DNA of 64,000 nucleotides from Candidatus Cloacimonadota bacterium (GTDB lineage: Bacteria > Cloacimonadota > Cloacimonadia > Cloacimonadales > Cloacimonadaceae): contig JAJBAW010000009.1 in NCBI GenBank assembly GCA_020532545.1, positions 1 to 64,000 of the forward strand, written 5' to 3'. Positions 35,280 to 44,934 of the stretch are shown piece by piece. Each line of letters begins with the position of its first letter. The stretch's first letter is position 1. Made by a program: the position numbers and the translations under genes. Below the pieces are notes generated by a model. The model saw only the letters and a program-made list of their open reading frames with translations, was not told where the DNA came from and ran no database searches.

Positions 35280-35954
35280 TTAACGCTGTAAGCCCGCTTG
35301 TAAGAAGAAGACGCGAGCAGCTTTGACGATAATCTCCATATAATCCAGAGCCTCGTCAAGATCACTCGCGAAGGTGAGTAGGCCATGTCCGGTCCAGATC
35401 AGAGCTTTTTGGTCGGTCAAAACCTTTTGGCTGCTCTGACAAAGCTGGAGCGAACCGGGTGGTTGATGGGGACAGATGGCTACTCCTTCCGGTAAATAGA
35501 GAGGGAGCTCCGGCAAAAGAGAGGCCATGAGTTGGTTAAGTTCCTCTGGATGCTGCATGATGGGCAATGATGACAGGGCAATGATCTCGGCAGGATGGGT
35601 ATGCAGAACCACCGAAAAGCGCGCGTTCTCCCTTTGCAGGCAGCGGTGACTGATCCATTCGCTGGTAGGCTTTGCTGCTTCGGGAAAGAAGGTATCCTGA
35701 TCTTCATTGCAGCTTATCAAAAGCAGATTGTCATGAGGACGGATAGCGGTCTGCCGATAGCGGCTACCTGTGCGGGAAACGATATACCATTTCTCGGCAG
35801 TCGGGATGTGCTTGCCCACGATATCGCTTACATCTATGCTAAGATTGCCGGCATTGGCCTCAGCCCAGCCATAAGAGTGGATCTGGGCGGCTACTTCAGC
35901 TATTTTGTCCAATAGCGGTTGATAGTCTGGATGATTGATAGAAGTTATATTCAT
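35280..35954 (-). CDS. Class II aldolase/adducin family protein
   Basis: This is a 224-residue zinc-dependent aldolase-fold protein. 'GWAEANAGNLS' (~29-39) and 'KPTSEWISHRC' (~100-110) resemble rhamnulose-1-phosphate aldolase (RhaD). 'HTHPAE' (~119-124) supplies two zinc-ligand histidines, and 'GHGLL' (~187-191) a third. It is shorter than RhaD (274), so substrate assignment to rhamnulose- or fuculose-phosphate is open. It overlaps the upstream acyl ligase by 1 nt (TGATG) and is the last gene of the minus-strand block beginning at 44934. No other rhamnose or fucose genes are present. Confidence 0.8.
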   Translation of the reverse strand: MNITSINHPDYQPLLDKIAEVAAQIHSYGWAEANAGNLSIDVSDIVGKHIPTAEKWYIVSRTGSRYRQTAIRPHDNLLLISCNEDQDTFFPEAAKPTSEWISHRCLQRENARFSVVLHTHPAEIIALSSLPIMQHPEELNQLMASLLPELPLYLPEGVAICPHQPPGSLQLCQSSQKVLTDQKALIWTGHGLLTFASDLDEALDYMEIIVKAARVFFLQAGLQR

Positions 35955-37483
35955 CAGCGTTTCTTGCTTCCTTGTTCGCGAACTATCTTTTCGATCTCGC
36001 GGAAATTGACCTTGCCGGAAGCCATCATGGGGATGTCTTTGATCACCAGAAACTGTTTGGGGATAGCGATCGGGGGCAGTTCTTTTTTTAGCTGCTTGAG
36101 CACTTTGTGCATGTCAAAATCTCCGGTAGTCACAGCGGCCACCACGTCAGCACCTTTGGTGGGATTGGGGACATCTACCACGCAGCAGATCACATCATCG
36201 GGCAAAAGATCGCTGAGCAACTCTTCCACTTTTACCAGCGATACCATCTCACCTCCTACCTTCACAAAGCGTTTGAGGCGTCCTTTGTGATACAGGTAGC
36301 CATCGCTATCGATGAGGCCGATATCACCGGTATCGTACCAGCCATTCCGGATGCGCAGCGAGGTTTGTTCCAAGTCGTAGAGATAACCTTCCATCACCAG
36401 ATCGCCTTTCACCAGGATCTTCCCTTCTTGATTGGGACCGAGGATCTTATCTGTATCAATATCGATGATGCGCACCTGGGTATTGGGCATGGGTAGCCCG
36501 ACAGAGCCATGTTTGTGCTGTCCGGGGATGCAGGTGGAGATTACCGGACTGGTTTCGGTGGTGCCATAGCCTTCCAAGACTGTGAGATTGTGCTTGGCCA
36601 GGAATCCTTCGTAGATTTTATCGGGAAGGTGATCTGCTCCAGCAATAGCGATCTTCACCGAGGCAAAATCTCCCGGGCTGGACTTTTGCAAATAGCCGTA
36701 GAAAAAGGCTGGTGTAGCAGCGATAAAAGTAACCTTGTAATCACGGATATAGTCGCATACTGTGCGGTATTCCAAGGGATTGGCATAGGTCACCATGCTG
36801 GCTCCGATCAAAGCTGGTAGCCAGAAATCCACCGTGAGTCCAAAGACATGGAACATCGGCAGGATCGAGGCAAAGACATCATTTTCATCCAAATGGATCA
36901 TTTTGGGGAAGGCATTTACATTGTGCAAAATATTGCGATGTGAAAGCTGCACAGCTTTGGGCTCTTTCTCGCTGCCGCTGGTAAAAAGGATCACGGAGAT
37001 CTCTGAGAGCTCGCCATGATGCACCAGGTTTTTCAGCACAGAAAAGGGCAGTTTGGAGGTCAAAGCCGCTTTGAGCTTGGCCACAAGGGTCACGCCTGCC
37101 AGAATATCCTCTACGAAGATCATGTGATCTATGGGCTGAAGCCCCAGCTTTTTCAAGAGCTGTTTGCTGGTGATGATGGTCTTAAATTGGCATTTTTCCC
37201 GGGCATACCGGCAATTCTCTATGGCCATGGTGGCATAATTTATCATGACCGGGACTTTACCCTTCATCAAGGTCCCCAGGATGGTGAGCATGGCGCCTAC
37301 GCCTGTGGGAAGCAAGATGCCGATGTATCTGCCCTTGATCTTGCCTATGTGTCCGCTCAGGATCAGGCTGGCGATCAGCATTTTGTCATAGCTGTAATCT
37401 GCCCCGGTGGATTTGTCGTACACTGCTATGCGCTGGGGAAAGCGCTTTGCGGTCTCTATAAAGCGTTGATGTAATTGTAGCAT
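35954..37483 (-). CDS. AMP-forming acyl-CoA synthetase / acyl-ACP ligase
   Basis: This ~509-residue ANL-superfamily enzyme activates a fatty or other carboxylic acid through acyl-AMP. The P-loop reads 'FTSGSEKEPKAVQLSH' (~166-181). The motifs YGTTETSP, YDTGDIG and the catalytic lysine in 'SGKVNFREIEKI' near the C-terminus are all present. ATG 37483 is preferred to ATG 37489, which touches the AAGGA site. The protein resembles the ligase half of Aas (acylglycerophosphoethanolamine acyltransferase/acyl-ACP synthetase), so recycling of fatty acids into membrane lipid is plausible. It follows the four-gene membrane cluster by ~10 bp. Confidence 0.85.
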   Translation of the reverse strand: MLQLHQRFIETAKRFPQRIAVYDKSTGADYSYDKMLIASLILSGHIGKIKGRYIGILLPTGVGAMLTILGTLMKGKVPVMINYATMAIENCRYAREKCQFKTIITSKQLLKKLGLQPIDHMIFVEDILAGVTLVAKLKAALTSKLPFSVLKNLVHHGELSEISVILFTSGSEKEPKAVQLSHRNILHNVNAFPKMIHLDENDVFASILPMFHVFGLTVDFWLPALIGASMVTYANPLEYRTVCDYIRDYKVTFIAATPAFFYGYLQKSSPGDFASVKIAIAGADHLPDKIYEGFLAKHNLTVLEGYGTTETSPVISTCIPGQHKHGSVGLPMPNTQVRIIDIDTDKILGPNQEGKILVKGDLVMEGYLYDLEQTSLRIRNGWYDTGDIGLIDSDGYLYHKGRLKRFVKVGGEMVSLVKVEELLSDLLPDDVICCVVDVPNPTKGADVVAAVTTGDFDMHKVLKQLKKELPPIAIPKQFLVIKDIPMMASGKVNFREIEKIVREQGSKKR

Positions 37484-37492
37484 ATTCATTCC

Positions 37493-38131
37493 TTATTTTA
37501 ACAGATGTAACCAGTCTCCCAAGAGAAAATCCAGACGGCCGATCAAAAGTGAAATACGTGCCATCACCGTGTAACCGAAGGTAGCGCCAAAGCTGACCAT
37601 CAGGAACCAGATGCCGACCTTGGAGACAGCCTTGGAGACGCCCTCCTGTTTCTTGCTGAAGTAAAAGAAGTACACGCCACAGATGGTGCCTATGATCATC
37701 AGTAGATTCCCGATTACTTCGGCAGTGGTAGCGGCAGCAAAGGGATTGATCATGGTGGCGGTAAGCTGTTGCAAGATATCGCTCTTCATATACCTGAGCA
37801 TTGAGATGCCGGCCGTGGTGCCCACCATGATGGCGATGGGATAGCGGCTGACCCACTGCGTTTTGGGATGAATGCGCATGAGCATCATGAGTCCCAAAGC
37901 AGCCGGGATGAGCAGAATCATATTGCCCGAGAAATCCTCTGCCAGTTTGGCAAAAAGATTCGGAACCATGATCGAATAGATAATGTAGACCAGCCAATAA
38001 GCCGCGGAAAGGCCTACAAAGACCTGTTCGGCAAACTTATAGAAGGGATTGTCCTTGTACAAAAAGCTGAAGATACACAGGGTGAAAAAAGCAGCGAGCC
38101 AGATGCCCATGGTGTTCATTATGCTAATCAT
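37493..38131 (-). CDS. Uncharacterised polytopic membrane protein (cluster gene 4)
   Basis: This protein of ~212 residues has about six predicted membrane helices and a short loop between the first two (FLYKDNPFYKFAEQVFVGLSA). The frame opens at 38155, but ATG 38131 has a perfect AGGAGG 7 nt ahead and starts the helix directly. It overlaps the preceding gene's stop by 8 bp. I recognise no family. It shares size, helical layout and a 'KFAEQVFVG'-like early loop pattern with the protein at 38948-39646 only loosely. The strict overlap with the three upstream genes implies a stoichiometric membrane complex. Confidence 0.75.
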   Translation of the reverse strand: MISIMNTMGIWLAAFFTLCIFSFLYKDNPFYKFAEQVFVGLSAAYWLVYIIYSIMVPNLFAKLAEDFSGNMILLIPAALGLMMLMRIHPKTQWVSRYPIAIMVGTTAGISMLRYMKSDILQQLTATMINPFAAATTAEVIGNLLMIIGTICGVYFFYFSKKQEGVSKAVSKVGIWFLMVSFGATFGYTVMARISLLIGRLDFLLGDWLHLLK

Positions 38132-38951
38132 TGTTCTTCCTCCTCTTGGCGACAAATACCTTGATATTGCCCAAGGCGATAAAGACGAGAATCAGTAGAT
38201 GGGCTACTGATTGCGCATCCATCTTGGTGGTGGCAGTACCTTTTCTACCGATCAGGCTTTCATATTCACTGGCAGCTTTGAGTCCACCCAAAAGGCCAGT
38301 AAGCTGTTTCTGTTCATTTACATAAGGAAAGAAACCTGGAGCACTTACTGCGGTGCATCCACCGGTAACGGGCACATCGTAAGAATCCCGCGCCACCATC
38401 ATCCATTCCTTCAGTCCGGGCACTCCGCTGGATAGCGAACTCACCCAGGCCACGTCTTTCAAGCGTTTGGTATTCTCCAGCAGGGGAATCTCCTCATAGG
38501 GAGTATTTCTGGTGTCTTTGGGATACACTTCTTTCAGGCCCCGACCCATGGCTTGGATGGTAACCATACCGCCTACCTTGTAGCCGAGATTCACATAATC
38601 CACGCCCCGTTTTTTATCCGGGTAATCGCGCAGCACCTTGTCAAAAGCTTGCTCAGCCATCTGCACTCCCATGGGCCACAGGGCTGTGGCGATGATCTTC
38701 TGCCCTTTTTTGAAGGCGTGTTCGATCATTGCTTCCCCCATAGGTTGCAGCTCGGTCATAGTGGAAGGATCGTAATCAAAGGAAATGATCACCACCTTAC
38801 CTTCAGGGGTGTTTTCGATGAGATCGTAGGCCATCTGCGTGTATCCGGAAACCTCGGTCTTCCAACCGATGGGGAAGAGGAGGGGCAGGGCCACGGCTAC
38901 CAGGAGCACCAGGTAGATGATCCTGCGTTCGACTATTGCGGAAAGCTTCAT
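38124..38951 (-). CDS. Uncharacterised membrane-anchored protein (cluster gene 3)
   Basis: This 275-residue protein has one N-terminal TM helix (~10-28) and one C-terminal helix (~248-266). Between them are ~215 residues expected outside the cytoplasm or in one compartment. That domain has an alpha/beta look: 'GKVVIISFDYDPSTMTELQPM', 'GQKIIATALWPMG' and 'VDYVNLGYKVGG' are successive strand-loop-helix units, Rossmann- or caspase-like. I do not recognise a catalytic signature. Conserved-looking 'SSGVPGLKEW' and 'TGGCTAVSAPGFFPY' segments deserve profile searches. It overlaps cluster genes 2 and 4. Confidence 0.75.
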   Translation of the reverse strand: MKLSAIVERRIIYLVLLVAVALPLLFPIGWKTEVSGYTQMAYDLIENTPEGKVVIISFDYDPSTMTELQPMGEAMIEHAFKKGQKIIATALWPMGVQMAEQAFDKVLRDYPDKKRGVDYVNLGYKVGGMVTIQAMGRGLKEVYPKDTRNTPYEEIPLLENTKRLKDVAWVSSLSSGVPGLKEWMMVARDSYDVPVTGGCTAVSAPGFFPYVNEQKQLTGLLGGLKAASEYESLIGRKGTATTKMDAQSVAHLLILVFIALGNIKVFVAKRRKNND

Positions 38952-39646
38952 TTGTCGCCTCCCAGATAGCTACGCTCTATGCCCAGAATAATCCTGAGAG
39001 AGCTACCCACTATACCCAGTCCAGCGGAGATGAGGATTGCCCTCTGTGCCGCAGTGTTGGGGAATTCCATGATGAAATCCGCCAGATTGGGGAAATGCCA
39101 AAACTGCAGATTTTCGGGCAACCAGCCGGTAAGCATAGTACCGATACTGGTGCGTCCGATGATCACTATGATAGCAGTGATCATGAGCAGGTTTGATTCC
39201 AGTCCACGGATGATAAAGGCTCTGTACGCCGCAGAGGCGATGAAGAAGGCAAGTAGCGAAAACAGCGTAGCCGAAAGCGGTAAATAGGCATTTTCAAAGA
39301 GATAGTCAAAGGGCTTTTGTCCCAGCCAGGCCTGAATCCCTGCTGCATCTCCCATGATGCCGGGAGTTTCCTGCATACCCCATAAGAGGCCAAGCACGAG
39401 CATGAGCCCAAAGCTGATCAGTCCCGCCAGATGGTACTGCCAATTATCGAGTTTGTGCACTATTTTGTGGGTATTCATCCTGATCAGGCTGATTTGTCCC
39501 AAGAGGATGGCAAAACCGGAGATAATCATGAACCAGCCTTCCAGGGTGGAGACGATCTGGTTGAAAGGACTATGCGGGATAAATTCTGAGAGCAGAACGA
39601 TAACGCCTACTATGAAAGCGAAGAAAAGTGGTGCAGAGCTTTTCAT
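38948..39646 (-). CDS. Uncharacterised polytopic membrane protein (cluster gene 2)
   Basis: This 232-residue protein has about six membrane helices and polar loops carrying 'NTHKIVHKLDNWQYHL' and 'EFPNTAAQRAILISAGLG'. It overlaps both flanking cluster genes by 4 bp (ATGA junctions). I recognise no family or catalytic motif. As one of four tightly coupled membrane genes it probably forms the core of a complex with the 275-residue soluble-domain protein. Confidence 0.75.
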   Translation of the reverse strand: MKSSAPLFFAFIVGVIVLLSEFIPHSPFNQIVSTLEGWFMIISGFAILLGQISLIRMNTHKIVHKLDNWQYHLAGLISFGLMLVLGLLWGMQETPGIMGDAAGIQAWLGQKPFDYLFENAYLPLSATLFSLLAFFIASAAYRAFIIRGLESNLLMITAIIVIIGRTSIGTMLTGWLPENLQFWHFPNLADFIMEFPNTAAQRAILISAGLGIVGSSLRIILGIERSYLGGDK

Positions 39647-40740
39647 GAGATTGCTCCTACGATAAATTCTTTGAGGTTTGAGATGCCCATGATTTCCAAT
39701 ATCACGCCCACAATGATGAGCAGGATGATGAGGAGCTTGCCAAAATCGTGCCCCTTGAGGCTGCCAAGCTGTTGAGGGTCTTTGGAGAGATAGGCGCTGG
39801 CAGCAAAAAGCTCTTCACCGATCAAGGTATAATCACAAGTGACTACAAAGAAAGGCAATTGATGCGCTTGAGCGGTACCCGCAGTCTGGATGGCACCGGT
39901 GGCAAAGCCGGTTTCGGCCAGAATCAAAGACTCCGCATAAAAGGAGCCCATAAAGAAGTTTGCCGCAGGCTTTCTGCGCAGCATGATGCCATCTATTCCT
40001 GCAACAAAGCCAAATTGGTCGTCGGTGAGATAAAAGATATTGTCGGGCTTGTAGGCATCCAGTCTTCCTACTTTGATATAGGCTTCCCGCACCACTTCTT
40101 TGGCGGCAGAGAGTACCATAGAGAACCTACAGGGCACGATGATTTCTGTATCATATTCCGCAGCTCTTTCGGCCAGATGGCTGAGGATGGTGAGGCTGGC
40201 AATGGTCTGAATATCATCCAGATCGCTGATGCCAGGCACATAGAGGATGGGTTTTCCCTTTTCCGTAGCACGTCCGATGGCTTCTTCCATGCTATCCAGT
40301 CCAGCGATGCGGCGAATGAAGAATTCCTTGCCGTGCCGGGCAGCCTGGATGTAATACAGAATGGCAGCACAGACGAGCAGGAGCAGGATCAAGAAGCCAA
40401 GCTTACCCATATAGAACCACTGTTCGCGAGTTTGGGCGGTGGCCAGAAGCGTGAGATCGTCATCTTGAAAATAGGCTTTGAGCTGATAGTGGTATTCATT
40501 ATTGGGCAGCAGCTCGTTATCTCTGAAGCTTCCGGTGGCATCGACACTGGTGACCAGGATCCGGACTGGTTCGTCAGCATTTTGTCTGCTGATTTCCACC
40601 TTTTTCACCATCGGGCTTAGTTCCCAGGCAAGGTCAATGGATTTGCCATCGTCCCAGGGAGTGTCCTTAGCGGAAAAGGTATTTGCCAGCAATAAGCTGA
40701 TCAAGATAGAAAACAATAAACACAGTAGTGGTTTACGCAT
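39643..40740 (-). CDS. Membrane protein with FN3-like ectodomain and DUF6754-like region (cluster gene 1)
   Basis: This 365-residue protein begins with a signal peptide (MRKPLLCLLFSILISLLLA). A ~90-residue fibronectin-III-like domain follows (DGKSIDLAWELS...NNEYHYQLKAY), then a TM helix (~112-132). A ~200-residue cytoplasmic domain contains 'GKPILYVPGISDLDDIQTIASLTIL', 'RFSMVLSAAKEVVREAY' and 'MGSFYAESLILAETG'. A final TM lies at ~336-356. The large domain resembles what I recall as DUF6754 in other uncultured bacteria; I cannot verify this. It is the first gene of a four-gene overlapping cluster of unknown function. Confidence 0.75.
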   Translation of the reverse strand: MRKPLLCLLFSILISLLLANTFSAKDTPWDDGKSIDLAWELSPMVKKVEISRQNADEPVRILVTSVDATGSFRDNELLPNNEYHYQLKAYFQDDDLTLLATAQTREQWFYMGKLGFLILLLLVCAAILYYIQAARHGKEFFIRRIAGLDSMEEAIGRATEKGKPILYVPGISDLDDIQTIASLTILSHLAERAAEYDTEIIVPCRFSMVLSAAKEVVREAYIKVGRLDAYKPDNIFYLTDDQFGFVAGIDGIMLRRKPAANFFMGSFYAESLILAETGFATGAIQTAGTAQAHQLPFFVVTCDYTLIGEELFAASAYLSKDPQQLGSLKGHDFGKLLIILLIIVGVILEIMGISNLKEFIVGAIS

Positions 40741-40862: not shown

Positions 40863-41660
40863 TTATTTTTGAAAAGCAGCTTTGATCTCATCCGTTTTGG
40901 CGATGATCTCTTTCAATTGATCCTTTGTGTAGGTACGGTTTTGATCGCTATCTATGATAGCCTTTACTTCTTTCAAAAGCTTGAGGGATTCTACAAAGGC
41001 TTCTTGTTCCACGATGTGAGGGGTTTTGATCTGCTGCATATTGAGCACGAGGCTGTTGAAGGTTCCCTTTTGGGCCAGCACAGTGGTTCTCTCGGCATTA
41101 TAGTTTTGATTAATCAACCAAGCCACACGGTTTGCAGCTTCGATCCATCCGCCCAAGAGCATCAGGGTGTAGTTATCAAAGTTCTCATTTTCCCAGAGTT
41201 TGCCTTCTACATCACCTTTGTGAAAATCGAGGGCTTTATCCAGCTCTTCCCACTGTTCGTTTTCGATCATCTTCTTCATCTGATCGCCCAAACGGTTGAC
41301 TTCTGATTCCAGAGCCAGCAGTGAGGTGAGATTCATCATGGAAGCTGAGATTTCGCTGAGTTTAGTCTTGTTGCGACCTTTTGCAGCCAAGACCGCATCA
41401 GCGGTTAAAAGTCCCAGAGAAAAGGCATTACGCACTTCTTCCTGCTTGGTTTTGTAGATTTTGGCAGGCACGGCGGCAGAAATGTCTTTTACCTGTACCT
41501 GATCCAGTGCTACATATACTTCTTTGAAAGAAGGCAGTGGGGCAAAGGTGATTACTTGTTCTACCAGCTCTTCACTAGGAACTTGCTCTACCTTTTTCTT
41601 ACAGGCTACCAAGCTCAGCACCATGATCAATACCATTGCGATGACTATCCGAGTCTTCAT
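40863..41660 (-). CDS. Putative lipoprotein
   Basis: This 265-residue protein has a lipoprotein signal (MKTRIVIAMVLIMVLSLVAC, lipobox LVAC, then KKK). The mature part is helical, with 'FSLGLLTADAVLAAKGRNKTKLSEIS' and 'LLGGWIEAANRVAWLINQNY'. This pattern resembles small periplasmic all-alpha proteins. I do not recognise the family. It starts 10 bp after the ABC transporter stop on the same strand and precedes the four-gene membrane cluster. It may be the periplasmic or outer-membrane partner of either. Confidence 0.75.
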   Translation of the reverse strand: MKTRIVIAMVLIMVLSLVACKKKVEQVPSEELVEQVITFAPLPSFKEVYVALDQVQVKDISAAVPAKIYKTKQEEVRNAFSLGLLTADAVLAAKGRNKTKLSEISASMMNLTSLLALESEVNRLGDQMKKMIENEQWEELDKALDFHKGDVEGKLWENENFDNYTLMLLGGWIEAANRVAWLINQNYNAERTTVLAQKGTFNSLVLNMQQIKTPHIVEQEAFVESLKLLKEVKAIIDSDQNRTYTKDQLKEIIAKTDEIKAAFQK

Positions 41661-41670
41661 TATTACTCCT

Positions 41671-44600
41671 TTATTCCTTGAAATAGACTTTTAGTTTTAT
41701 CCAGGTGATCAGATTCAGCACAAAGGCAAAAAGCAGGATCACCAGGGCATTAAAATTCCAGGTACGGCAGTGACGCTTTCCCCAGATCTTGTAACTGGAC
41801 ATAAATTCATTGCGCCCTGTATTCATTACCTTGCCGTCCATCATACTTACGGCAGAATTCAGATAGCTGTTCACGATCTCATTAGGATCCCATTTTTCGG
41901 CGATAGCGGTTTTGGCATAATACACTTCTGCACGCCGCTTTTGGAATTCCTTTTGGCTAATTGCAGCATTCCTGTAATCGTGTAAATATGTCAATTCCTT
42001 TTTTTCGATTCGGCGTAAAGCACGGTGAAATTTAGTGTTTTTGGCATAAGCTGTGGTGAGTCCTTCAAAGAGCCAGCGCGAGGGAATAGCCTGCACCACT
42101 TCGGGAATCGGGTGTCTTTGCCAGAGGGTGAGATTGCGGTTCATACGTTCAAATTCGATCACTGCGCCACCAAAGATGATTTGCGGGATCAAGATCAAGG
42201 GCAGCAGGTTGATGATCACGCGGTTTTCTTTGATGAAGGCAGAGCACAAAAGCCCGATGGAATTGCCTACCATGGAAGCCAAAAAGAAATAGAGGATGCT
42301 GCTGAAGCCCAGTCCCTTTACGCCCAGTATCAAGGAAGCAATAGCTTGATAAAGGGTGGCCTGGACCAGGCCAAAAAAGCAGAGCGTGATGATCTTTGAA
42401 AGGAGATAGCTGCTCATCTTCAGATTCATGAGTCGTTCTCTGAGCACGATCCTGCGTTCACCCAGAATCTCTTCGATGCTATTTGACATCCCCAAAAAGA
42501 TAAAGGCGATGAGGGAGACGAAGACGTAGATAAAGACATTGTTATTATCATGATAGGAATAGCTGGCGCTGGTGGTGTGTCGCAGGATAAAGGCGATGAT
42601 CAAGGCCAGCAGCGGTGCTTCGATGAAGGTGATAATCTGATTTGTGCGGCCGCGGAACTTCATTTTGAAGCTACGCGAGATGAAGGTCAGAAGGCTTAAG
42701 ACATAGCTTTTGAGCCCCATGGGTTTGCGTCTGCGTTTTGAACTGGGGATGGTAACGCTGGTTTCGAGAGCATCGCTTTGGATCATCTCAAAGAGCATCT
42801 TGCGCTTGAATTTATCGCGCCAATACTCCGGAGGAAACATGCGCTTGGCCTGCACCTGTTTTTGCAATTGTTCATACACCGGCTGGCCCTGAGCGTCATA
42901 TTCTGGATAGGTGATGACATCGTAAAAGTAATCCGAAGTCTTTAGGTGCCGTTTGGTCTCGATCTCGGTCTTATTATTGCTCAACAATTGCAGCTCTTCA
43001 TCAAAATAGGCAAAGCTCTCATTGGGAGTGCCATAAAATGCCACTCTGCCACCCATGTCCATCATCATAACCCGGTCAAACTTGCGATAGATGCTGCTAT
43101 TGGGCTGATGGATGGTGATGATCACGATCTTGCCCTGTTCGCAGAGCTTGGACAAAATGCCTATGATCTGCTCCGCGTCATTGAAGGAAAGGCCGCTGGT
43201 GGGTTCGTCACAGATGATGATGGTGGGCTCAAAGAGCAGTTCCAAAGCGATATTCAGGCGTTTGCGTTCTCCGCCGGAGAGGTTTTTGACGCTGGTTTCT
43301 CCCACAATGGTATCGTGGTGATGGTTTAGCTTCACATGGAAAAGGATGTTGTTTACCTTTTGCTCGATCACGGATTTCTGCAATTTCGGCATCCGGAGCC
43401 GCAGGCGGTAGTAGAGGTTCTCATATACGCTGAGATTGGGATAAAGCATGTCCTGCTGTGGCACATAGGCCAGATATTCCAGGAAGTAATTGAGATTCGA
43501 ATGGATGGGTTTGCCGTCGATCAGGATCTGCCCATAGGTGGGTGTGATTTCGGTGGCGAGCACGTTGGTAAGGGTGGATTTTCCGCAGCCGCTTTGTCCC
43601 AAGATCGCCACGAGCTGTCCCTTTTCCACTTCAAAAGACACCGAATCCAGAGCGAGCTTGCCATCCCGGAAGAAGTGTTTGATATCGACCACAGAGAGCT
43701 TTTGCATCTCAAAGGGAGTCTCGATGAGGTCGTAGAAATTATTGATCCGGTAATTGCGTTTTTCGATGGTCAGAATATCTGAATTCAGGACAATCGGTGT
43801 GGCCTCATTCACCACCTTGCGATTCACATAGATGCTGTAGCCCTTTTTGGGCGGCAGCACATGATAGCTCTGCCCCCGGAGCTCGATCAAGGCAATGCTG
43901 TTTTCGCTATCCTCACGGCTGATGGAAAAATAGCCCTTTTCCAGATAGATGTACAGCCGTTTGGGGATGTAATCATCCACTCCGATGCTGCTGCGGTTTT
44001 CGATCACCATCACCAGATGGAAGGGCGCATAGCCCCGGATCTGCATAGTATCGTCAAAAAAGACTTCATGGCGGCGGTTGTGAGCAAGCTCACGGCCATT
44101 CAGGGATACCACTCCGCTGGTGACCACTATATTGAAGCTATTGTGTTCTTTATATACGATAAAGTCATAACTGCTTTTACGAAAGGCTATTACATCGCTT
44201 TCATCACGCAATGCATACAGATTTTCCAGACAGCTATGGGAATAGTTTCTCCCACCCAGAGAGAGCATGGCATCATCCGAAAGCAAAATGATGGAATTGC
44301 GCTCCGGCGCCTGGGAGTTGATCAGCGCTCCTGAGCTGGAGGGGATGCTCAGGAAAAGGTATTTATCGATGGCGAAGATCGCGCATTCGTAAGAGCTGAG
44401 CCGCTCACTGCGAAAGGCGATATCTGTGCCGGCTCCAGAGCCAAAGACCACGTAATCTGAAAACACGGAATGCTTGAGATGGCTGAGATGATGACGGCAG
44501 GGAATGGTAACCAGGCCAGAGCGATTGTGCTCCAGATGATCCACCAGCGGCAAAAAGACCTCAGTGGAGATATTGAGCTGTTTGCTGAACTGCATGATTT

Positions 44601-44934
44601 CTGTGAGCTCAGAGATAGCAAAATCAGCCTCTGTGCGCGCCATGATCACCAGGGATTGGAGAACCCGGATTTTATCAAAAAGCGAGAGATGCCGATCCAG
44701 AAATCTCAGAACTTCCTCGATATCAAATTCGCTTTCCATGATCTGCTTTACATAGGATTCCCAAGAGACATCGACTTGCGCAAAAAGATTGGTGAGCAAT
44801 GAGTACAGAATGTCCGTCTCACTAGCAGTGATATCATCACCTTTGAGATTGTAAACATAAAGTCTGGTGACCATATCAATGGTCTTTTTTAGGCGCTCCT
44901 GATTCTCACGCATCAGCGTGGGCGTTCTTAACAC
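41671..44934 (-). CDS. ABCG-type ABC transporter with TerB-like and FHA-like N-terminal domains
   Basis: This is a 1087-residue fused half-transporter. Residues ~1-145 are helical and look TerB-like ('FDKIRVLQSLVIMARTEAD', as in 'd.ak..al..la.aDg.v...E'). Residues ~150-400 carry two beta-rich, FHA-like stretches ('SLNGREL...' and 'YVNRKVV...NSDILTIEKRNYRI'). The ATPase domain has GQSGCGKST (~441), LSGGERKR (~550) and CDEPTSG (~575). The GERKR signature and 'TIHQPNSSIYRKFDRV' mark the ABCG/White family. The C-terminal ABC2-type membrane domain (~750-1087) has six helices. The GTG start at 44934 follows GGAG at 7 nt. The substrate is unknown. The lipoprotein 10 bp downstream may be a partner. 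Confidence 0.85.
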   Translation of the reverse strand: MLRTPTLMRENQERLKKTIDMVTRLYVYNLKGDDITASETDILYSLLTNLFAQVDVSWESYVKQIMESEFDIEEVLRFLDRHLSLFDKIRVLQSLVIMARTEADFAISELTEIMQFSKQLNISTEVFLPLVDHLEHNRSGLVTIPCRHHLSHLKHSVFSDYVVFGSGAGTDIAFRSERLSSYECAIFAIDKYLFLSIPSSSGALINSQAPERNSIILLSDDAMLSLGGRNYSHSCLENLYALRDESDVIAFRKSSYDFIVYKEHNSFNIVVTSGVVSLNGRELAHNRRHEVFFDDTMQIRGYAPFHLVMVIENRSSIGVDDYIPKRLYIYLEKGYFSISREDSENSIALIELRGQSYHVLPPKKGYSIYVNRKVVNEATPIVLNSDILTIEKRNYRINNFYDLIETPFEMQKLSVVDIKHFFRDGKLALDSVSFEVEKGQLVAILGQSGCGKSTLTNVLATEITPTYGQILIDGKPIHSNLNYFLEYLAYVPQQDMLYPNLSVYENLYYRLRLRMPKLQKSVIEQKVNNILFHVKLNHHHDTIVGETSVKNLSGGERKRLNIALELLFEPTIIICDEPTSGLSFNDAEQIIGILSKLCEQGKIVIITIHQPNSSIYRKFDRVMMMDMGGRVAFYGTPNESFAYFDEELQLLSNNKTEIETKRHLKTSDYFYDVITYPEYDAQGQPVYEQLQKQVQAKRMFPPEYWRDKFKRKMLFEMIQSDALETSVTIPSSKRRRKPMGLKSYVLSLLTFISRSFKMKFRGRTNQIITFIEAPLLALIIAFILRHTTSASYSYHDNNNVFIYVFVSLIAFIFLGMSNSIEEILGERRIVLRERLMNLKMSSYLLSKIITLCFFGLVQATLYQAIASLILGVKGLGFSSILYFFLASMVGNSIGLLCSAFIKENRVIINLLPLILIPQIIFGGAVIEFERMNRNLTLWQRHPIPEVVQAIPSRWLFEGLTTAYAKNTKFHRALRRIEKKELTYLHDYRNAAISQKEFQKRRAEVYYAKTAIAEKWDPNEIVNSYLNSAVSMMDGKVMNTGRNEFMSSYKIWGKRHCRTWNFNALVILLFAFVLNLITWIKLKVYFKE

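Follow-up and report, generated by a model that had tools for sequence, protein, structure and literature searches.

In the platforms of type IV pili and type II secretion systems (PilM-N-O-P and GspL-M), an ASKHA-fold ATPase-like cytoplasmic protein stands together with small inner-membrane partners. The MutL/GlmL family (PF13941) is known from operons of B12-dependent mutases, and so an envelope role of a MutL protein is not implied by membership of this family alone. The Pfam entry PF20539 (DUF6754) is a domain of unknown function, and it leaves uncovered both the genes B, C and D that accompany it here and its association with MutL and with a protein termed E below. We analysed four overlapping membrane genes, A to D, in a 64,000-nucleotide stretch of DNA from Candidatus Cloacimonadota (the window) and compared them with these systems. 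Judged by the databases and the open-access literature searched, we could not place the A-B-C-D gene system in any known kind; this open-access literature offered no usable information about DUF6754 or about a membrane complex associated with MutL.

The initial annotation had described four open reading frames of 365, 232, 275 and about 212 residues overlapping by 4 to 8 bp, and all of them are present on the minus strand (Table 1). The A/B and B/C overlaps are both TCAT (4 bp each), and the C/D overlap is CTAATCAT (8 bp). An alternative TTG start of D, 24 bp upstream, would give a protein of 220 residues instead of 212. The acyl ligase, aldolase and lipoprotein genes around the four genes were rejected as core members because they stand beside A-B-C-D in Cloacimonadota only. 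The ABC transporter of the window was also rejected, since ABC ATPases are so common that their presence carries little weight. This 1087-residue ABC-2 type transporter (41671-44934, minus strand) combines ATPase and membrane domains in a single chain, and its N-terminal region of about 400 residues looked FHA-like by eye, with no FHA domain among the matches listed at E 1e-4.

Table 1. Positions of the four genes and of their neighbours in the window
Feature	Position	Strand	Description	Basis
Gene A	39643..40740	-	365 aa; signal peptide, FN3 ectodomain, TM, cytoplasmic DUF6754 domain, TM (topology predicted)	ORF, PF20539, model, fold matches
DUF6754 domain of A	39664..40428	-	residues 105-359	motifs GRATE, AESLILAETG and CDYTLIGEELFAASAYL kept across phyla
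Gene B	38948..39646	-	232 aa, polytopic, 6 candidate TMs	ORF, hydropathy; homologues follow A throughout
Gene C	38124..38951	-	275 aa; TM, alpha/beta domain (probably periplasmic), TM	ORF, hydropathy, model
Gene D	37493..38131	-	212 aa, polytopic, 5 candidate TMs	ORF, hydropathy; homologues follow C
Lipoprotein gene	40863..41660	-	265 aa, directly upstream of A; accessory	adjoins A again in Cloacimonadota only
AMP-binding acyl ligase gene	35954..37489	-	511 aa, 3 bp downstream of D; local companion, non-core	Pfam; recurs in close relatives only
Class II aldolase/adducin-family gene	35280..35954	-	224 aa; local companion, non-core	Pfam; recurs in close relatives only

Hydropathy of A gave a signal peptide, an ectodomain, a transmembrane helix, a domain of about 200 residues and a second transmembrane helix, and that of C gave a domain of about 215 residues between two transmembrane helices. 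The models of both proteins were confident (A, 79 aligned sequences, mean pLDDT 92.5, pTM 0.78; C, 81 aligned sequences, mean pLDDT 95.4, pTM 0.90). Hydropathy and models together bear out the FN3-like ectodomain and large, putatively cytoplasmic domain ascribed earlier to A and the alpha/beta domain held between two membrane helices ascribed to C, and hydropathy agrees with the description of B and D as polytopic. As to topology, the charged stretch RHGK...RR after the transmembrane helix of A suggests that the DUF6754 domain is cytoplasmic, and the positive charge at the N- and C-termini of C indicates that its alpha/beta domain is probably periplasmic. When the whole model of A, the DUF6754 part included, was searched against solved structures, FN3 domains dominated the result and the matches listed covered essentially the FN3 part. 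The same search with C gave just partial Rossmann-type overlaps (query-normalised TM-score of 0.35 or less), and neither the profile of DUF6754 nor that of C matched a PDB sequence up to E 10. Of A and C, both modelled confidently, only the FN3 part of A resembled a solved structure.

The alpha/beta domains in the models of A and C have a similar order of strands and helices ahead of the last transmembrane helix. Homology between the cytoplasmic domain of A and the domain of C, suspected from motifs, was not supported by profile comparison (probability of 4.6% or less), leaving a resemblance only, and A, B, C and D had no detectable sequence relation to each other. Conservation peaks in the cytoplasmic DUF6754 domain and in the membrane positions of B and D and is lower in the ectodomain of A; the conserved motifs and positions fit either an active site or a machine with tight packing.

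The cytoplasmic domain of A clearly belongs to PF20539 (E 1.4e-122, 408 bits against a gathering cut-off of 27), and no Pfam, NCBIfam or PADLOC family was above threshold for B, C and D. The earlier statement that no function can be assigned to the four proteins therefore stands for B, C and D, and for A it needs the qualification that a named family exists, itself of unknown function. Searches of Pfam, NCBIfam and PADLOC-DB with A to D, and of PDB with the profiles of DUF6754 and C, matched no known transporter, secretion or defence family. A defence system was rejected as no model of PADLOC-DB, which covers known and candidate anti-phage defence, matched A to D, MutL or E. We also rejected an Mrp Na+/H+ antiporter, for which B scored 12.9 bits against the subunit G equivalog cut-off of 151, and a sub-threshold resemblance to DUF679.

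Of the 88 sampled genomes of the window's phylum (Cloacimonadota), 86 encode DUF6754, usually in three copies per genome within the family of the window. A scan of GTDB species contigs gave at least 578 stretches encoding relatives, and the best 80 of these at least 578 loci, from about 15 phyla, were read. Among these 80 loci, 95 of 110 A genes were in an intact A-B-C-D run, and most of the remaining 15 were cut by contig or locus ends. The record names of these loci include Cloacimonadota, WOR-3/Stahlbacteria, Zixibacteria, Fermentibacteria/Aegiribacteria, Coatesbacteria, Latescibacteria, Riflebacteria, Poribacteria, Edwardsbacteria, Gemmatimonadota, Caldithrix, Neomarinimicrobiota, Planctomycetes and others. 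Because the four genes recur in the same order in about 15 phyla, their arrangement is not due to chance. The initial annotation had taken them as a candidate undescribed complex, which should neither be found as separate genes in most genomes nor match a known transporter or secretion system; both expectations agree with the intact runs and with the searches of Pfam, NCBIfam and PDB, and the four genes form one conserved unit. An ordinary operon, with membrane proteins of unrelated function, would account for the short overlaps, which are common in bacterial operons, and for the lack of sequence relation among A to D, but is hardly credible in view of the order kept in about 15 phyla, the duplication of whole sets and the co-occurrence of A and C even where they are unlinked.

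Several loci depart from the usual run. Other genes are inserted within it at L110 and L120; in the former, labelled Caldithrix (L110:11846-16367, plus strand), a Por_Secre_tail protein is encoded between A and B and an NYN-domain protein between C and D. In Zixibacteria, one A gene stands alone without B, C and D (L093:9632-10747, plus strand), and the same genome has a full set at L096. The B protein of G026, a genome from the order of the window, has 396 residues with an apparent TPR-repeat insertion between membrane helices (L041:4821-6011, minus strand). Note that an Armatimonadetes-labelled set (L056) fell inside Cloacimonadota on the C tree, and its genome is probably mislabelled.

Within the best 80 of the at least 578 loci, A-B-C-D sets are often in tandem, in two or three copies. 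The genome of the window (G000) has a second paralogous set in the order A2-B2-C2-D2-A3 (C85; L034:4683-12995, plus strand), and genome G020 has the same layout. The three DUF6754 copies are one A of the window type and two of about 1,000 residues flanking B2, C2 and D2; these second-set A proteins have 994 and 920 residues, with ectodomains of about 700. In a tree of 105 C proteins, a group of 34 (SH-aLRT 99) was separated from the window type and contained the C proteins of the second cluster in Cloacimonadota, those of the last copy in most Zixibacteria arrays and those from Poribacteria. The same division requires only two changes on a tree of 124 A domains; the sets therefore largely duplicate and descend as units. 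By these trees, which are quick searches without bootstrap, midpoint-rooted and with no order of events claimed, the sets split into types long ago, the window carrying one and the second set of the same genome another. The gene overlaps had been read as a sign of fixed stoichiometry, which overlap alone does not show, and a simple 1:1:1:1 rule is made doubtful by the additional A gene (A3), by the paralogous sets in tandem and by the A and C genes that are unlinked in five Planctomycetota genomes.

Clustering of the neighbours at the A-B-C-D loci identified a MutL-family protein, the protein E (about 375 residues) and a protein of about 130 residues, c2. MutL matches PF13941 with 412 bits (gathering cut-off, 27), with PF13941 matches in 40 of 40 relatives as well, and is thus a member of the MutL/GlmL family by the Pfam cut-off; it differs in its length (about 620 residues against about 460), in its score against the NCBIfam GlmL equivalog NF040745 (218.6 bits, below the cut-off of 475) and in tracking A-B-C-D in Planctomycetota. 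The N-terminus of E and that of the MutL-E fusion described below have weak similarity to the RnfC/NqrA barrel-sandwich domain PF13375 (E 0.0075 and E 4.5e-5, respectively), both scores being under the family cut-off. The rest of E had no Pfam match, c2 had no family match, and a PDB sequence search with E and MutL gave chance-level matches only. Homology of E to C or A was considered and rejected, as profile comparison found none.

The order c2-MutL-E was found beside A-B-C-D in Zixibacteria, Fermentibacteria, Riflebacteria and Planctomycetota, and c2-MutL in Coatesbacteria; at least one of c2, MutL, E and c11 is present in 32 of the best 80 of the at least 578 loci. In Cloacimonadota, c2-MutL-E forms a separate operon (L128 and L131), and this phylum also has a MutL-E fusion of about 950 residues (L040:3-2876, plus strand; L127:7761-10610, minus strand; and C80 in the genome of the window), which in G026 lies directly upstream of a second-type set (L040). 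E was found in 14 of 15 A-B-C-D genomes from many phyla, the exception being the Poribacteria genome G101. Two further observations concern other neighbours. ExbB/ExbD genes adjoin A-B-C-D in WOR-3, Fermentibacteria, Zixibacteria and one planctomycete, and in WOR-3 (L064, L067, L069, L070 and L092) D is followed by genes for a DUF4388 protein, two small membrane proteins and then ExbB, ExbD and TonB; such neighbours are suggestive of an energised envelope system, with no base rate for comparison. In the planctomycete G153 (L151:1113-6192, plus strand), genes that looked PilM-like and pilus-platform-like by eye lie on the strand opposite to the adjoining E, possibly by chance.

A phyletic profile, as proposed in the initial annotation, was drawn up for Planctomycetota, in which A was present in 39 of 148 genomes and C in the identical 39. 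E was present in 36 of the 148 (35 of the 39 A-bearing genomes and 1 of the 109 others) and MutL in 40 (37 of 39 and 3 of 109), two of the three MutL matches outside the A-bearing genomes being weak or partial. The Fisher P values for association with A (C, 1e-36; E, 3e-28; MutL, 7e-29) are optimistic because shared ancestry is ignored, and they concern one phylum; in a small sample from a second phylum (n = 4 genomes only), A and E were found together in 4 of 4. In G125, G172, G185, G206 and G231, A and C are far apart or on different contigs, indicating that their co-occurrence is not mere linkage. Two genomes (G134 and G145) have A and C without MutL or E, with incomplete assembly as a possible cause, two (G180 and G211) have A and C without E, MutL being partial in G211, and G216 has MutL and E without A.

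From the kept gene order, the co-occurrence in Planctomycetota, the c2/MutL/E neighbourhood, the fusion at L040 and the wide occurrence of E, we conclude that A to D, MutL and E very probably act as one functional system, of which c2 is perhaps also a part. The earlier proposal of a four-gene machine thus appears right as to the unit and probably incomplete as to its members. A secondary or ion-coupled transporter or channel, with B and D as the pore, A and C in regulatory or substrate-binding roles, and MutL and E linked through a shared pathway only, has in its favour that two polytopic proteins with conserved membrane positions plus a periplasmic domain are a common transporter layout. It nevertheless seems rather unlikely, as no Pfam or NCBIfam transporter family was above threshold and as near-obligate co-occurrence with MutL and E and tandem paralogous sets with variable large ectodomains would be unusual for a transporter. 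Alternatively, MutL and E might be a reactivase supporting a B12-dependent or other radical mutase, with A-B-C-D importing or handling the cofactor or substrate. The GlmL family to which MutL belongs is named after methylaspartate mutase, and in Fermentibacteria a TonB-dependent receptor gene and ExbB/ExbD/TonB genes follow A-B-C-D, but in the loci read we noticed no gene for a mutase next to the sets, and MutL scores far under the GlmL equivalog cut-off, so that we regard this explanation as quite improbable.

We consider it evenly balanced whether A to D, MutL and E form an envelope machine driven by ATP or else a simple transporter or scaffold, and give about the same weight to A-B-C-D being the inner-membrane core of an envelope system that cooperates with a cytoplasmic ATPase module of MutL, E and c2. 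In such a machine, B and D would form the membrane body, and, with the topology predicted from charge, A would hang its FN3 ectodomain (in other copies an ectodomain of about 700 residues) in the periplasm, where C would hold its alpha/beta domain. The DUF6754 domain of A would face the cytoplasm as a docking surface for MutL-E, and binding and hydrolysis of ATP by MutL might drive the membrane complex to assemble or to cycle between conformations, by which it would move or build something across the envelope. The set types arose by duplication; many phyla have them in tandem, the genome of the window has them at separate loci, and they may be paired or specialised versions. Besides the evidence for a single system, this explanation draws on the confident models of A and C, the old set types common to the A and C trees and the presence of DUF6754 in nearly all sampled genomes of the phylum. 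Several genomes count against it: in Cloacimonadota, G029 and G033 have MutL but no DUF6754, G216 has MutL and E but no A, G101 has A-B-C-D but no E, and the sets of G134 and G145 are accompanied by neither MutL nor E. A structural or regulatory envelope scaffold, anchoring or sensing through FN3 with MutL as a switch or assembly factor and no ATP-driven movement, would suit the FN3 and other variable ectodomains, which suggest binding, and ASKHA proteins such as FtsA and PilM can be assembly factors. Conservation is highest, however, in the DUF6754 domain and in the membrane positions of B and D rather than in the ectodomain, and a scaffold seems distinctly unlikely.

The core residues of the A-B-C-D set are held across phyla, and the family databases and open-access literature searched give no function for it. 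If the proposed ATPase-linked machine is correct, it would add to the known kinds of inner-membrane machine, extend the role of the MutL family beyond B12 enzymes and provide a first function for DUF6754. The prediction from co-occurrence that A to D, MutL and E act together is testable in cultured planctomycetes. A new class of such machines, in which one or more A-B-C-D units of old, distinct types are energised or assembled by MutL with E and c2, is a tentative proposal that we hold at slightly less than even probability, and we extend it with the same reserve to Cloacimonadota, WOR-3, Zixibacteria, Fermentibacteria, Riflebacteria, Planctomycetota and other lineages.

Among the described systems, ExbB-ExbD-TonB and TolQR are sometimes encoded near A-B-C-D, but A to D themselves match neither MotA_ExbB nor ExbD, and so such genes are neighbours only and the set does not belong to the ExbB/ExbD/TolQR or MotAB systems. 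The type IV pilus and type II secretion platforms are likewise distinct in sequence, as A, B, C and D match no pilus or secretion inner-membrane family of Pfam and MutL matches PF13941 instead of a PilM family; the likeness to PilM-N-O-P and GspL-M is one of logic only, in the combination of an ASKHA-fold ATPase-like protein with small inner-membrane partners.
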